NCBI GenBank assembly: GCA_022795855.1
Contig: JAAWHL010000015.1
Coordinates: 1 to 41,223 of the forward strand
Direction of reading: 5' to 3'
Origin: Lawsonibacter sp.
GTDB taxonomy: Bacteria; Bacillota; Clostridia; Oscillospirales; Oscillospiraceae
DNA length: 41,223 bases
Below, in pieces: positions 1 to 41,112 of the stretch (its first letter is position 1; the number at the start of each line of letters is the position of its first letter). A program made the position numbers and the translations under genes. Below the pieces are notes generated by a model. That model saw only the letters and a program-made list of their open reading frames with translations. It was not told where the DNA came from and ran no database searches.

Positions 1-99
1 TTTCTTGGAATCCACCAAGGATTCCTGCGAAAATACGCCTTGTCCGGCGGAAAAATTCCTCATCCAGGCGTCATTTTCGGTTATGAATACAGGTTCTTA
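1..99 (-). repeat. 3'-end repeat, copy 1 (cut by window edge)
   Basis: Read on the minus strand from base 99, this stretch aligns with the copies at 25472-25633 and 5625-5790. It shares the blocks CCGGAC.AGGC, TTTTCGCAGGAAT and the CCTGT end motif. The permease stop codon (97-99, TAA) is the first triplet of the repeat end: TAAGAACCTGT here against TAGGCCCTGTTTGAA elsewhere. The far end lies outside the window. Confidence 0.6.
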
Positions 100-5624: not shown

Positions 5625-5790
5625 TAGGCTTTCTTTGAAAAATGGAAACATGGCCTAACGCGGAGGATTTTGCTGCCAGGCGAGGCCGGCTTTTCGCAGG
5701 AATACTGGATGTCTTTCAAGAAAAATCGGGGAAGTATGGCGGCAAATTGCCCGCCGGTTGGGCGTATTGACAATGTTCAAACGGGCCCTA
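5625..5790 (-). repeat. 3'-end repeat, copy 2 (full length)
   Basis: 166-bp copy. The ends are TAGGCTTTCTTTGAA on the plus strand and TAGGGCCCGTTTGAA on the minus strand, an imperfect terminal inverted repeat. The interior matches the copy at 25472-25633 almost throughout, including TTGCCGCCATACTTCCCCG and TTCCTGCGAAAAG on the minus strand. This is the one copy that does not abut a stop codon; it lies in the 459-bp gap between the bceA-like gene and tadA. Confidence 0.8.
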
Positions 5791-24724: not shown

Positions 24725-25414
24725 ATGCTCCCGGTTTCTCTGCAATTTGAATTCATTCTCCGCATCCTGCTCTCCTGCGTCTGCGGCGTCCTGGTGGGGC
24801 TGGAGCGCTCCAGGCGGCTGAAGGAGGCCGGCGTGCGCACCCACTGCGTGGTGGCCTGCGGCGCCGCCCTGCTGATGATTGTCTCAAAATACGGCTTTTC
24901 CGACCTGACCACCGACGGGGTAAACTGGCTGTACGGCACCAAAGGGGCGGACAGCGCCCGCATCGCTGCCCAGGTGGTCACCGGCGTGGGCTTTCTGGGG
25001 GCGGGCGTCATTGTCCGCACCGGCATGTCCATCAAGGGCCTGACCACCGCCGCCGGCGTCTGGACCACCGCTGCCCTGGGGCTGGCCCTGGGCTCGGGCA
25101 TGTACTTTATCGGTATCATGAGCACCGGCCTGATTATGGGCGCCCAGTACCTGATGCACCGGTTCAGCATCGGCAGCGACGCCTATACCATCCAGGAGAT
25201 CAAGGTGCGGTTTCACGACTGCCCCGCCATCCGGGACCGCCTGTTCCAGCTGCTGGAGGACCGGGGCGGGGTCATCGGCGGCTGCTCGGTCAATAAGTCG
25301 GACAACGGCGAGATTACTTACGACCTGGCGGTGCGCATCCGCAATCCCATCACCTCCCAGGAGCTCCAGCAGCTGATGGACGAGTATGAGCAGATTCATT
25401 CCTTCTCCGTATAG
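24725..25414 (+). CDS. MgtC/SapB family membrane protein
   Basis: 229-residue protein. The first about 140 residues are the MgtC domain with four or five transmembrane helices. Diagnostic stretches are GLERSRRLKEAGVRTH near residue 25 and GVGFLGAGVI near 88. A C-terminal soluble region (about 150-229) looks like an ACT-type regulatory domain. MgtC proteins are linked to magnesium limitation and modulation of the F-type ATPase; the role in commensal Firmicutes is not settled. The ATG at 24725 follows AAGGAGGG. It is last in the methionine operon by spacing, and a terminator follows, though the functional link is unclear. Confidence 0.88.
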   Translation: MLPVSLQFEFILRILLSCVCGVLVGLERSRRLKEAGVRTHCVVACGAALLMIVSKYGFSDLTTDGVNWLYGTKGADSARIAAQVVTGVGFLGAGVIVRTGMSIKGLTTAAGVWTTAALGLALGSGMYFIGIMSTGLIMGAQYLMHRFSIGSDAYTIQEIKVRFHDCPAIRDRLFQLLEDRGGVIGGCSVNKSDNGEITYDLAVRIRNPITSQELQQLMDEYEQIHSFSV

Positions 25415-25471: not shown

Positions 25472-25633
25472 GAGCCTGTTTAACACCGCCCGGCCCGCCG
25501 GCGGCGGGCCTTTTGCCGCCATACTTCCCCGATTTTTCTGGAAAGGCATCCAGGATTCCTGCGAAAAGTCGGCCTCGTCCGGCAGCAAAATCCTCCGCAT
25601 TTAGTCATATTTCCATTTTTCAAACAGGGCCTA
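25472..25633 (+). repeat. 3'-end repeat, copy 3 (full length)
   Basis: About 162 bp between the mgtC terminator and the 3' end of aspS. The left end is GAGCCTGTTTAAC, and the right end is TTTTTCAAACAGGGCCTA. Interior blocks TTTGCCGCCATACTTCCCCG and TCCTGCGAAAAG are shared with copy 2. The right end stops six bases short of the aspS stop codon. CGGCCCGCCG and CGGCGGGCC near the left end form a local hairpin. Confidence 0.82.
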
Positions 25634-25639
25634 ATAGTA

Positions 25640-27421
25640 TTACGGTTCCTCTTCCTTTGCCGTGCAGGCAATATTCAGCTCGTCCAGCTGTGCCTGGGTC
25701 ACCTCGCCCGGCGCGCCCATCATCAGGTCCTGGGCGTTCTTGTTCATGGGGAAGGGAATAATCTCCCGGATGGAGTCCTCACCGGCCAGCAGCATGACCA
25801 TCCGGTCCACCCCGGGGGCGATGCCGGCGTGGGGGGGCGCTCCGTAGCAGAAGGCGTTGTACATGGCGGGGAATTTTTTCCGCACGTCCTCCTCCTCCAG
25901 GCCCACCATCCAAAAGACCTTGATCATGATCTCCGGGTCGTGGTTGCGCACCGCGCCGGAGGACAGCTCCACGCCGTTGCATACCAGGTCGTACTGGTCG
26001 GCGGTGATCGACAGCGGGTCGATTTCCCCCCGGATGGCCTTTTCCACGGTCTCCAGCCCGCCGGAGGGCATGGAGAAGGGGTTGTGGCAGAACTCCAGCT
26101 CTCCCGACTCCTCCCCGATCTCGTACATGGGGAAGTCCACAATCCAGCAGAACTCATACCGCTGGGTGTCCATGTGGGCGGGGCAGAAGGCGCCCAGCTT
26201 ATTCCGCAGCACGCCGGCGGTCTTCTGGGCGGCCAGGAGGTTCCCGGCGGCCAGGCCCACAAAGGACCCCTTCTCCAGCTTCAGCCCCTCCACCACCTGA
26301 TCCTTGATGGGCTGGATAAACTTGGCGATGCCGCCCACAAGCTCTCCGTTTTCGTCGCAGCGGAACCAGTAGGCCTTGTTCCCGGACTGCACCTCCACCT
26401 CGCTGCACAGGCTGTCGATCTGCTTGCGGGTGCCCTGGAAGCCGGACACAGCCACCGCCTTTACCGTCTGGTTCTCAAAGGGCCCGAAGCCGCAGGAGCC
26501 CAGCAGGGCGGTGGCGTCGGTCACCTCCAGGTCAATGCGCAGGTCGGGCTTGTCGGTGCCGTAGCGCTCCATGGCCTCCAGGTAGGGGATGCGCCGGAAG
26601 GGCGCCTCCGAGGCGGTGTGATACTTGCCGTACCGGGCGAAGATGGGGGGGAGGATCCGCTCCAGCACGGCGAACACGTCGTCCTGGCCGGCAAAGGCCA
26701 TCTCCATGTCCAGCTGGTAGAACTCCCCGGGGGAGCGGTCCCCCCGGGCGTCCTCGTCCCGGAAGCAGGGGGCAATCTGGAAGTAGCGGTCAAAGCCGGA
26801 GGCCATCAGCAGCTGCTTGAACTGCTGGGGCGCCTGGGGCAGGGCGTAGAATTTGCCGGGGTGCTTCCGGGAGGGCACCAGATAGTCCCGGGCCCCCTCG
26901 GGGGAGGAGGCGGTAAGAATGGGGGTGGTGATCTCCAAAAAGCCCTCCTCAATCATAGCCGCCCGCAGGGCGGCCACCACATTGCACCGCAGGACGATGT
27001 TGGCCTTGACCTCCGGGTTGCGCAGGTCCAGATAGCGGTACTTTAAGCGCTGGGTCTCGTCCGCCTCCCGGCTGCGGCTGATGGGGAAGGGGAGCTCGTT
27101 GTACCGGCAGCGGCCCAGTACCCGGATCCTGGAGGGGACCACCTCAATGTCGCCGGTGGGCAGCTTGGGGTTTTTGCTGTCCCGCTCCCGGACCACCCCT
27201 TCCACAGAGATGGTGGACTCCTTGTTCAGCTCCTTGACGAGGGACATCATCTCCTCCGTCTCAATGACCACCTGGGTGGTGCCGTAGAAGTCCCGGAGCA
27301 CCACAAAGGCCAGATTCTGCCCCACCTCCCGGACGTTCTCCATCCAGCCGGCCAGGGTGACTTGCTGGCCAATGTGCTCCATGCGCAGGTCGTTGCAGGT
27401 GTGGGTGCGGGATTGAACCAT
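25640..27421 (-). CDS. aspS: Aspartyl-tRNA synthetase
   Basis: 593-residue class IIb synthetase, the usual bacterial length. The N-terminal OB-fold anticodon domain begins with VTLAGWMENVREVGQNLAFVVLRD. The class II motif 2 is FRDEDARGDRSPGEFYQLDMEM, and the bacterial GAD insertion lies between about residues 285 and 410. Motif 3, GVDRMVMLLAGEDSIREIIPF, is near the C-terminus. The start ATG at 27421 follows TTGGAG at nine bases; a TTG upstream is part of that site. Whether it is AspRS specific for tRNA-Asp or also tRNA-Asn cannot be told. It is last in a leftward cluster with hisS. Confidence 0.95.
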   Translation of the reverse strand: MVQSRTHTCNDLRMEHIGQQVTLAGWMENVREVGQNLAFVVLRDFYGTTQVVIETEEMMSLVKELNKESTISVEGVVRERDSKNPKLPTGDIEVVPSRIRVLGRCRYNELPFPISRSREADETQRLKYRYLDLRNPEVKANIVLRCNVVAALRAAMIEEGFLEITTPILTASSPEGARDYLVPSRKHPGKFYALPQAPQQFKQLLMASGFDRYFQIAPCFRDEDARGDRSPGEFYQLDMEMAFAGQDDVFAVLERILPPIFARYGKYHTASEAPFRRIPYLEAMERYGTDKPDLRIDLEVTDATALLGSCGFGPFENQTVKAVAVSGFQGTRKQIDSLCSEVEVQSGNKAYWFRCDENGELVGGIAKFIQPIKDQVVEGLKLEKGSFVGLAAGNLLAAQKTAGVLRNKLGAFCPAHMDTQRYEFCWIVDFPMYEIGEESGELEFCHNPFSMPSGGLETVEKAIRGEIDPLSITADQYDLVCNGVELSSGAVRNHDPEIMIKVFWMVGLEEEDVRKKFPAMYNAFCYGAPPHAGIAPGVDRMVMLLAGEDSIREIIPFPMNKNAQDLMMGAPGEVTQAQLDELNIACTAKEEEP

Positions 27422-27471
27422 AATAATCAACTCCAATTTGTATCATCAATCTATAAAATGACTATTTGGAA

Positions 27472-30588: not shown

Positions 30589-30660
30589 ACGCCCCGCAGG
30601 GCGGAATCCCCTCCCGCACAGAGAGAACAACGAAACAACAGGACGGGGAGGAAATGAAAA

Positions 30661-30935
30661 CGGCGGGGCGGGACAGAGCCCGCCCCCTACATGGTGCGGC
30701 CATCACCGCGGGGCGATATCCTGGGGGCGCGCAATGTGCACCTCTGCGCCGGCGGACGAAACAAACAAGGAACCCGCCGGTGTGGAAAACAATACGGCGG
30801 GGCGGGACAGAGCCCGCCCCCTACCCGGTGCGGCCATCACCGCGGGGCGATATCCTGGGGGCGAACAGTGTGCGCCTCTACGCCGCCGGACGAAAAGGAA
30901 CGAAAGAACCCGCCGCTGGTGCGGGCAAAGCGGCA
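30661..30935. repeat. Tandem direct repeat, about 134-bp unit, two copies
   Basis: The units start at 30661 and 30795, each with CGGCGGGGCGGGACAGAGCC and then GTGCGGCCATCACCGCGGGG. The later half diverges slightly (CGCAATGTGCACC against AACAGTGTGCGCC). Each unit contains the hairpin GGGGCGGG-ACAGAG-CCCGCCCC. Frames are open across parts of it, but none has a ribosome binding site or keeps frame between units, so it is called non-coding. Confidence 0.85.
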
Positions 30936-33416: not shown

Positions 33417-33574
33417 GGGCCTGTTTAATCGCTCGGGGCGTGCCGGGCGGCAGGGGATTTTCTGCCGGGCAGGGCAGGCTCCCGCGGGGATCCCCGGCAG
33501 GTTCCGGGGAAATTCCGCGCGGCATGGCGGCAAAGGGCCCGCCGGTGGGATGGGAGCTGCCGGGCAGGCGCTCA
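33417..33574 (-). repeat. 3'-end repeat, copy 4 (diverged)
   Basis: The plus-strand left end is GGGGCCTGTTTAATCG. On the minus strand the other end reads TGAGCGCCTG and then CCGGCGGGCCCTTTGCCGCC, as in copy 2. It is more GC-rich and diverged than copies 2 and 3, but blocks and order agree. The mscL stop codon (33572-33574) is the first triplet of the repeat end. Confidence 0.6.
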
Positions 33575-33970
33575 GGGCCGGCCGCGCTCCTTTAGCAGAT
33601 CGCGGATCTCGGTGAGCAGCTTCTCCTCAGGGGAGGGCTCCGGGGGCGCGGCGGGGGCGGCGGGCCCCTCCTTTTTGCGGCGGAGCTTGTTGACGCCCTT
33701 CACCATGCAGAACACCACCAGCGCCATCACCAGGAAGTTCAAAACCGCCTGAATGAAGCTGCCGTAGGGAATCACCGCGCTCCCCAGCCGGAGGGTCAGG
33801 CTGGCAAAGGAGATGCTGCCGGTGAAAATCCCCAGCACGGGCATGATGATGTCGTTAATCAGGGAGGTGGTGATGGCGCCGAAGGCCCCGCCGATGATGA
33901 CCCCCACCGCCAGGTCCATCACATTGCCCCGCACGGCGAAATCCCGGAACTCCTGAAGGAATTTTTTCAT
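33572..33970 (-). CDS. mscL: Large-conductance mechanosensitive channel
   Basis: 132-residue inner-membrane channel that opens under osmotic downshock. The N-terminal helix and TM1 are [26 protein letters not shown], the strongest MscL signature. TM2 is at about residues 72-95 ([21 protein letters not shown]). A charged tail [16 protein letters not shown] forms the cytoplasmic helix bundle. Length is normal. The ATG at 33970 follows GGGGGCC, 11 bases after the serS stop, so it is read with serS. Its stop codon coincides with the end of a dispersed repeat. Confidence 0.93.
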
Positions 33971-35331: not shown

Positions 35332-35347
35332 TGTTTCACGTGAAACG
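35332..35347. promoter_or_regulatory. parS site, one mismatch
   Basis: TGTTTCACGTGAAACG matches the 16-base parS consensus TGTTTCACGTGAAACA except at the last base. It lies between serS and the gene after parB. Confidence 0.9.
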
Positions 35348-35379: not shown

Positions 35380-35474
35380 GGGCCTGTTTGAACATTATCA
35401 ATCGAAAAACCGGCCTCGTCCGGCAGCAAAAGCCTCCGCGTTTGGTCCTATTTCCATTTTTCAAACAGGGCCTA
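35380..35474 (+). repeat. 3'-end repeat, copy 5 (internally deleted)
   Basis: 95 bp. The left end is GGGCCTGTTTGAAC, the right end TTTTTCAAACAGGGCCTA. These ends form a nearly perfect terminal inverted repeat. Compared with copy 2 about 70 interior bases are missing between ATTATCAAT and CGAAAA. The last three bases, read on the minus strand, are the TAG stop codon of the adjoining gene. Confidence 0.85.
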
Positions 35475-37973: not shown

Positions 37974-38102
37974 AAGGGCCGCCCCCCCGATGCCGCGTTC
38001 CGTTTTCCCGGAATACACAAAGCGCTCCTGCGAAAACCTGCCTGGCCCGGCGGGGAAATCCCCTGCCGCCCGATATGCTTCGGGATATCAAACAGGTTCC
38101 AA
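37974..38102 (+). repeat. 3'-end repeat, copy 6 (diverged)
   Basis: About 129 bp with the order of blocks found in the other copies: CCGCGTTCCGTTTTCCCGG, CTCCTGCGAAAA, GCCTGGCCCGGCGGGGAAAT and the end TATCAAACAGGTTCC. The right end finishes a few bases before the noc stop codon (38105-38107). The left limit is approximate. Confidence 0.65.
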
Positions 38103-41008: not shown

Positions 41009-41112
41009 GAGCCTGTACCAATCGCCTCGGCACGCATCCTTCCGTCCCAAAGCGCCCCCCGGGGAAATGCGCCCGGCCCGGCGGAAAAATCCCTTGTCCG
41101 GGCGCCGCTTGT
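41006..41112 (+). repeat. 3'-end repeat, copy 7 (diverged)
   Basis: Starts TAAGAGCCTGTACC, where TAA is the permease stop codon, then follows the block order of copy 6: CGCATCCTTCCGTCCC, AAAGCGC, GCCCGGCCCGGCGGAAAAAT. The stop-proximal end is the opposite end from that in copies 1, 3, 5 and 6. The right limit is approximate. Confidence 0.5.

Follow-up and report, generated by a model that had tools for sequence, protein, structure and literature searches.

A MITE superfamily with a conserved, covarying hairpin core and exchangeable ends in Oscillospirales genomes

In a Lawsonibacter sp. genome, a repeat of about 160 bp lies between an MgtC/SapB-like gene (24725-25414, plus strand) and aspS (25640-27436, minus strand). 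The window analyzed here is the entire 41,223-nucleotide contig C48 of this draft genome, which has 2,501,976 bases in 127 contigs. A sequence-only reading of the window had described the repeat as one of seven dispersed copies with inverted ends and without a transposase, as in a miniature inverted-repeat transposable element (MITE). What kind of element is it, what moves it, and why is its inner part so well kept? To score the copies we used R1, a model of the 79-nt repeat core built from 26 cores taken from several genomes and several end types. The seven copies were found at or near the positions first proposed, as listed here with their end types (A to D):

25472..25633, plus strand: hybrid copy whose left end is B-type (GAGCCTGTTTAAC...) and whose body and right end are A-type
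25511..25590, plus strand: hairpin core of the hybrid copy, 74.3 bits with R1; the minus strand is the better folding one
5625..5790, minus strand: full-length A-type element, the range counting one TA per side; core at 5668-5747, 77.3 bits with R1
1..96, plus strand: C-type element truncated by the contig start, only the right part present, ending in ...GGTTATGAATACAGGTTC and then TTA
33417..33575, minus strand: diverged B-type element; core at 33457-33535, 59.5 bits with R1; outer limits set by eye
35380..35474, plus strand: A-type element retaining both A ends, its core without the apical part owing to an internal deletion
37980..38101, plus strand: diverged copy with a B-like right end (ATCAAACAGGTTC) and an unrecognized left end; core at 37980-38058, 48.0 bits with R1
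41009..41112, plus strand: probable decayed copy with a D-like left arm (GAGCCTGTACCAATCGCCTCGGCACGCATC) and a C-like right arm, most of the core lost

Five of the seven copies were detected clearly by R1, including the one at the contig start, whose core (1-55), cut by the contig edge, scores 62.5 bits. The copy at 35380-35474 lacks the middle of its core and is absent from the R1 matches; it was recognized by identity, 76 of its bases being 91% identical to the copy at 25472. The copy at 41009-41112 reaches 10.8 bits (E 0.79), under two chance-level matches of 12.0 and 11.8 bits, and is counted as an element, with doubt, on its arms alone, which were compared by eye with D and C copies. Ends of type TAGGCCCTGTTTGAA, first ascribed to the copies in general, proved to belong to the A subfamily (5625, 35380 and the right end of 25472) and are not found on the other copies.

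Some further features of the window were noted. A stop-free frame of 53-54 codons spans the whole element in the four copies tested, including 25472-25633 and 5627-5788. A tandem pair of 134-nt copies, 85% identical, lies at 30626-30893, and a series of short hairpins (ACCACCCG...CGGGTGG and others), with no Rfam match above gathering, occupies the contig end (41113-41223) beside the probable decayed copy. A probable location near the replication origin is indicated by two parS-like sites (TGTTTCACGTGAAACR), at 35332 and 37911, next to ParA- and ParB/Noc-like genes; within 70 bases of each site a repeat copy begins.

The sequence-only reading had named a genome free of further copies as the outcome that would speak against a repeat family. 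Instead, a DNA search with the copy at 25472 gave 49 matches in the genome, and R1 gave 142 matches at E <=0.1 in the 2.5-Mb draft, contig-edge fragments included (150 of 1315 candidates were scored). A search with a second subfamily returned 67 rows, a number that counts some copies again in inverted orientation, and the end pattern GRGCCTGTTTRAHANT, allowing one mismatch, matched the genome 87 times as against once when read backwards. The elements measure about 160-166 bp with inverted terminal repeats, the size and ends of a MITE, and are too short for a transposase gene, as had been proposed; those of types A and B are imperfect palindromes over their full length. From the fetched loci of this genome we took 141 core segments, some expanded copies being counted twice, and sorted them by their ends:

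B/B ends, 30 of 141 core segments: GAGCCTGTTTAAYATCTC
C/C ends, 21 of 141: GAACCTGTATTCAYAACC
A/A ends, 20 of 141: GGGCCTGTTTGAAAAT and GGCCTTGTTTGAAAAAT
D/D ends, 14 of 141: GAAGCTGTACCAATCGCC
mixed ends, 12 of 141: the copy at 25472 (B left, A right) is of this type
one or both ends lost, unrecognized or at an edge, 44 of 141

Several subfamilies exist, as anticipated, but the fuller count is at least four end types in this genome and not two. Copies also occur side by side or one within another: a B, D, C chain is joined by TTA (L221) and an A element is nested within a C element (L010). Several contigs of the draft end at repeat copies. Beyond this genome, the exact B end GAGCCTGTTTAAYATC was present in 8 of 60 genomes, and the B end TNAGAGCCTGTTTAA in 9 of 250, both counts including the genome studied here, with 57, 45 and 17 matches in three genera and one or a few elsewhere. 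Genome G116 holds 57-bp elements with B ends and no core (L136:1455-1511 and L139:1418-1474), probably internal deletions. A possible gene-carrying form of the element is seen at another locus (L294:3837-4742), where a core and a 231-aa ORF, for which Pfam gave no match, lie between C-like ends bordered on each side by TAA. One B element had no match among phage records; another had a single match among plasmid records, in Subdoligranulum, in which roughly half of the element was aligned (query 41-120, corresponding to the core).

The flanks of the copies bear the marks of insertion. Exact 3-bp TNA duplications border 33 of 64 B, C and D copies, as against a mean of 13.2 and a maximum of 23 when right flanks were shuffled 2000 times. 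Taken by type, they were found in 17 of 30 B copies (2000 shuffles: mean 8.0, maximum 15) and in 10 of 13 D copies (2000 shuffles: mean 3.0, maximum 8); the signal is weak for C, with 6 of 21 (mean 2.6; 36 of 2000 shuffles as high). The target duplication of the A type is likewise weak and less certain than the TNA of the other types, TA flanking both ends in 6 of the 22 copies and others having CA (6 copies) or TG on the left. Joined flanks were prepared for eight insertions, and those of four were searched in 64 genomes of the genus, our own included. For a B-type copy on contig C90, 11 congeners match across the joined flanks and the element is absent in 10 of 10 aligned congeners, with 1-3 gap positions near the junction; this is the empty orthologous site that the sequence-only reading had proposed to look for. 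For a copy on contig C95, three genomes span the joined flanks with larger gaps at the junction, and the two other loci gave one-side matches only.

A transposase with matching ends had also been proposed as a check, and one was found for type A. A DUF4096 search identified insertion sequences of 842-847 bp (L101, L103, L106 and L124) in three genomes of the same genus and one of 832 bp (L121) in a fourth, the last below the cut-off and the rest above it. All have A-like ends with TA on both sides, and these ends are GGCCTTGTTTGAAAAAT, GGGCTTGTTTGAAAAAT or one-base variants. When the ORFs of L103 and L106 were scanned, both from L106 and one from L103 exceeded the NF033580 cut-off for IS5. Subgroups of IS5 with TA or TNA duplications are recorded in ISfinder. 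For B and D the correspondence is partial. A 1657-bp IS5 element of genome G081 (L119) has ends GAGCCTGTTCAA, near B and not identical to it, and a TAA duplication; its transposase was rejected as a general partner of B, a related protein occurring in 1 of 394 genomes of the order and over a 65-residue stretch only. The genome studied here has a decayed IS5-like copy (L098) that carries one D-type end and scores above the Pfam cut-off for DUF4096 and below that of NF033580. The searches turned up no autonomous element whose ends match B, C or D exactly, nor any partner for C. Most of the 30 DUF4096 loci of the genus that were scanned carried no repeat-type ends, and DDE_Tnp_1 was not found in three of six genomes searched, two of them (G025 and G135) rich in B ends, which is weak evidence because drafts often lose repeats. 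Two further observations were made by eye. Overlapping frames on contig C44 (L110) resemble XRE-type helix-turn-helix pieces and a DUF4096 piece, perhaps a decayed or domesticated part of an IS5, and in the genome studied here a CRISPR-like array with the repeat GTCGCCCCCCTCGCAGGGGGCGTGGATTGAAAT lies upstream of a DDE transposase gene (L095, about 150-680).

The copies are dispersed, have inverted ends and TNA duplications (B and D; C more weakly), leave empty sites in congeners, include chimeric forms and share their A ends with IS5 elements. The MITE-like nature first proposed for the repeat is well supported by these features, and the repeats form a MITE superfamily for which IS5-type transposases presumably act in trans. 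Stated in full, they are very probably non-autonomous MITEs of about 160 bp, mobilized in trans by IS5-family transposases acting at their terminal inverted repeats, with exchangeable ends around a conserved hairpin core.

The core is what the window alone could not reveal: a single covarying structure is common to the subfamilies and spread across the order. The 26 cores behind R1 fit 26 pairs, with 81.3% of cells paired and a covariation of 0.269 as against 0.118 when shuffled and at most 0.164 when slid. A search of this genome together with others, a check of the kind that the sequence-only reading had recommended, found R1 matches in 67 of 149 genomes, our own included (66 of the 148 others), and in 30 of 71 genera. 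Copy number by R1 swings widely among congeners, per-genome counts near 31 in this search being lower bounds. A pattern scan of named genomes gave at least 120 core stretches. Among the 80 listed, most are titled Oscillospiraceae, Clostridia or Clostridiales; named carriers include Oscillibacter, Lawsonibacter, Angelakisella, Colidextribacter, Gemmiger, Butyricicoccus and Ruminococcus. One is a Bacteroides and one a Roseburia by title, and these may be mislabelled. A less strict regular expression for the core gave too much noise to be used.

Conservation of this kind could in principle come from common descent in ordinary MITEs with a functionless core, the covariation and strand bias arising from a long palindrome and from composition. 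Foldback transcripts are, according to the available text of PMC2229807, general in bacterial MITEs. However, R1 applied to the 80 listed loci gave 94 cores, 91 of them distinct, and these covary far above both controls: 83.9% of cells are paired and covariation is 0.367 as against a shuffled mean of 0.089 and at most 0.115 when slid, in an alignment fitted to R1 whose apical part, unlike the lower stems, is partly fixed by the search pattern. A functionless core would also not be expected to keep its unpaired motifs while the stems change, as is observed here (the apical motif is partly fixed by the pattern, the lower loops are not).

The ends, by comparison, vary around a constant geometry. 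Enough flank for comparison was available for 76 of the 94 cores, and 45 of these have inverted repeats matching at 11 or more of 14 positions at 38-46 nt on both sides, with no motif bonus, as against a mean of 4.6 and a maximum of 10 of the 76 cores when right flanks were shuffled (50 shuffles); the remaining 31 have weaker or no ends at that distance. A, B and D types occur there, together with the further end sequences GGCACTGTCC, GAGCCTATCCC, GAGCATGTTCTCA, GTAACCGCTGAATAAATCG, GGCACCTCTAAAAA and AAGGCAACACCGC. An apical expansion of two extra hairpins was found at the identical site in elements with different ends:

A ends: L022, L024 and L025
B left and A right end: L027
C ends with TAA on both sides: L249

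This shared expansion, together with the 12 mixed copies, shows that cores and ends recombine.

The two strands of the core are not equivalent. Its orientation was set arbitrarily and both strands were folded, 68 of the 94 cores having sufficient flanks and length, with several per assembly. With RNA parameters the complement was the more stable strand in all 68 of these named-contig elements with full flanks, by a median of 20.9 kcal/mol. The same held in 38 of 38 representatives, a uniformity that argues against a functionless core, and in 115 of 133 copies of the genome studied here, as against 72 of 136 random windows. Composition accounts for about a third of the effect, dinucleotide shuffles retaining 3.5 of the 11.25 kcal/mol strand difference of the core; this part fits a functionless core, and 36 of the 38 representatives exceed their own shuffled mean. 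Mismatches on the better folding strand, counted at 15 pairs in 35 aligned representatives (the 38 minus three dropped beforehand), comprise 40 G-U and 24 G-A as against 2 A-C and 2 C-T, which again tells against it. Twenty-five of the 40 G-U fall at one position, an apical pair conserved as G-U in 25 of 35. An excess of A-C over G-U in other genomes (21 vs 4) is explained by its having been counted on the less well folding strand. In contrast, the inner stem of 35 cores of the genome studied here, read on the core strand, shows no bias (12 G-T vs 15 A-C), as a functionless core would predict. The complement was still preferred in 62 of 68 elements when G-U pairs were forbidden, so G-U is not the sole cause of the preference. 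With DNA energy parameters it was preferred in 67 of 68, so that RNA and single-stranded DNA are not distinguished. The core thus has both the covarying stems and the preferred strand of a structured RNA, the latter under DNA parameters too. Taken together, the folding data suggest selection on a single-stranded form, RNA or single-stranded DNA, and we regard the functionless core as a serious but somewhat doubtful alternative.

The position of the elements relative to genes bears both on that alternative and on a second one, in which the host uses the core as a structured RNA or as a regulatory element and MITE ends have spread it, as has been proposed for NEMIS transcripts, putative substrates of RNase III (PMC2229807, available text). 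We examined 52 elements with exact duplications, two rows of which repeat the same copies. In 35 of them the duplicated triplet is TAA or TGA, in the other 17 it is TTA or TCA (p 0.018); an open frame of 60 codons or more has its in-frame stop there in 17 vs 6 cases. These 23 of 52 would suit a host RNA, as do the covarying stems, the G-U and G-A pairs on one strand, the conserved apical G-U and the expansion of the apex by extra hairpins. However, any bias that does appear places the better folding strand more often antisense to the gene, and the nearest gene ends are oriented 14 vs 15. There is no firm rule of orientation relative to genes, which is also what a functionless core would show. 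The idea that the element is kept in 3' UTRs in the sense direction is unsupported by the stop-codon and nearest-gene-end counts. Across the window no Rfam family passes its gathering threshold, and in seven loci searched at E <=5 none aligns with the core; the large copy-number swings among congeners and the many decayed copies suggest a selfish element. A host RNA is thus an unlikely explanation. Mobilization of single-stranded DNA by an HUH- or tyrosine-type enzyme reading the hairpin, as with REP elements or attC sites, would agree with a strand-specific hairpin under DNA parameters too, but it is very improbable and was set aside, since a DDE transposase is what the inverted ends, the 3-bp TNA duplications and the A-type ends shared with IS5 elements indicate.

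Our preferred reading is of a MITE moved in trans by IS5-type transposases, an element with two layers. In the outer one, about 40 bases of each arm carry the ends, which differ between lineages; IS5-family transposases would recognize the terminal inverted repeats and move the elements in trans, and differing ends would let an element follow whichever IS5-type transposase is present. The inner layer is the 79-nt core, a single conserved hairpin with covarying stems and conserved unpaired motifs. Because the complement is by far the more stable strand and most of its mismatches are G-U or G-A, the core may be retained for its folding as a single strand, RNA or single-stranded DNA. This fold could aid persistence of the element, perhaps through a bound host factor or through shielding of the hairpin. 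That a strand-specific hairpin, as RNA or single-stranded DNA, is carried through the order by swapping its ends, one core riding many IS5-type transposases, is a tentative proposal to which we give a little less than an even chance. If it is true, bacterial MITEs are more than shrunken insertion sequences, with a folded core that outlives changes of transposase, and the role of the MITE body becomes testable. The element is also frequent, with more than 100 copies in the genome studied here, often directly at gene ends, and absent from Rfam.

The sequence-only reading knew of no described family with this sequence, and our searches agree: Rfam gave none, and the family is undescribed in the titles and abstracts of the open PMC papers listed and in the available text of two works on bacterial MITEs (PMC10969869, PMC2229807). 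With the IS5 family (NF033580) the repeats share terminal sequences and the form of the target duplication, but they have a conserved hairpin in place of a transposase gene. Like ERIC and CIR, they are intergenic repeats with a proposed RNA fold; these differ in sequence and hosts, and no common core with several end types is reported for them in the available text of PMC2229807. For the Correia/NEMIS elements of Neisseria, the same text describes two sizes of hairpin MITE, 107 and 155 bp, that have inverted ends, TA at the termini and a duplicated target. They resemble the present repeats in their hairpin, inverted ends and target duplication, whereas hosts and sequence are different and an order-wide covarying core with exchangeable ends is not reported there. 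Nearest in behaviour, as far as the available text of PMC2229807 describes it, is RUP of Streptococcus pneumoniae, a 107-bp element present in 108 intergenic copies, which inserts at TA, has ends resembling a resident IS and was proposed to be a MITE of IS630-Spn1. In these points it resembles the present repeats; it differs in its IS630 partner and in having, in that text, one end type, whereas the present repeats set at least four end types on one core and have IS5-type partners. We classify them as a MITE superfamily whose new feature is the combination of a conserved covarying core with exchangeable ends.
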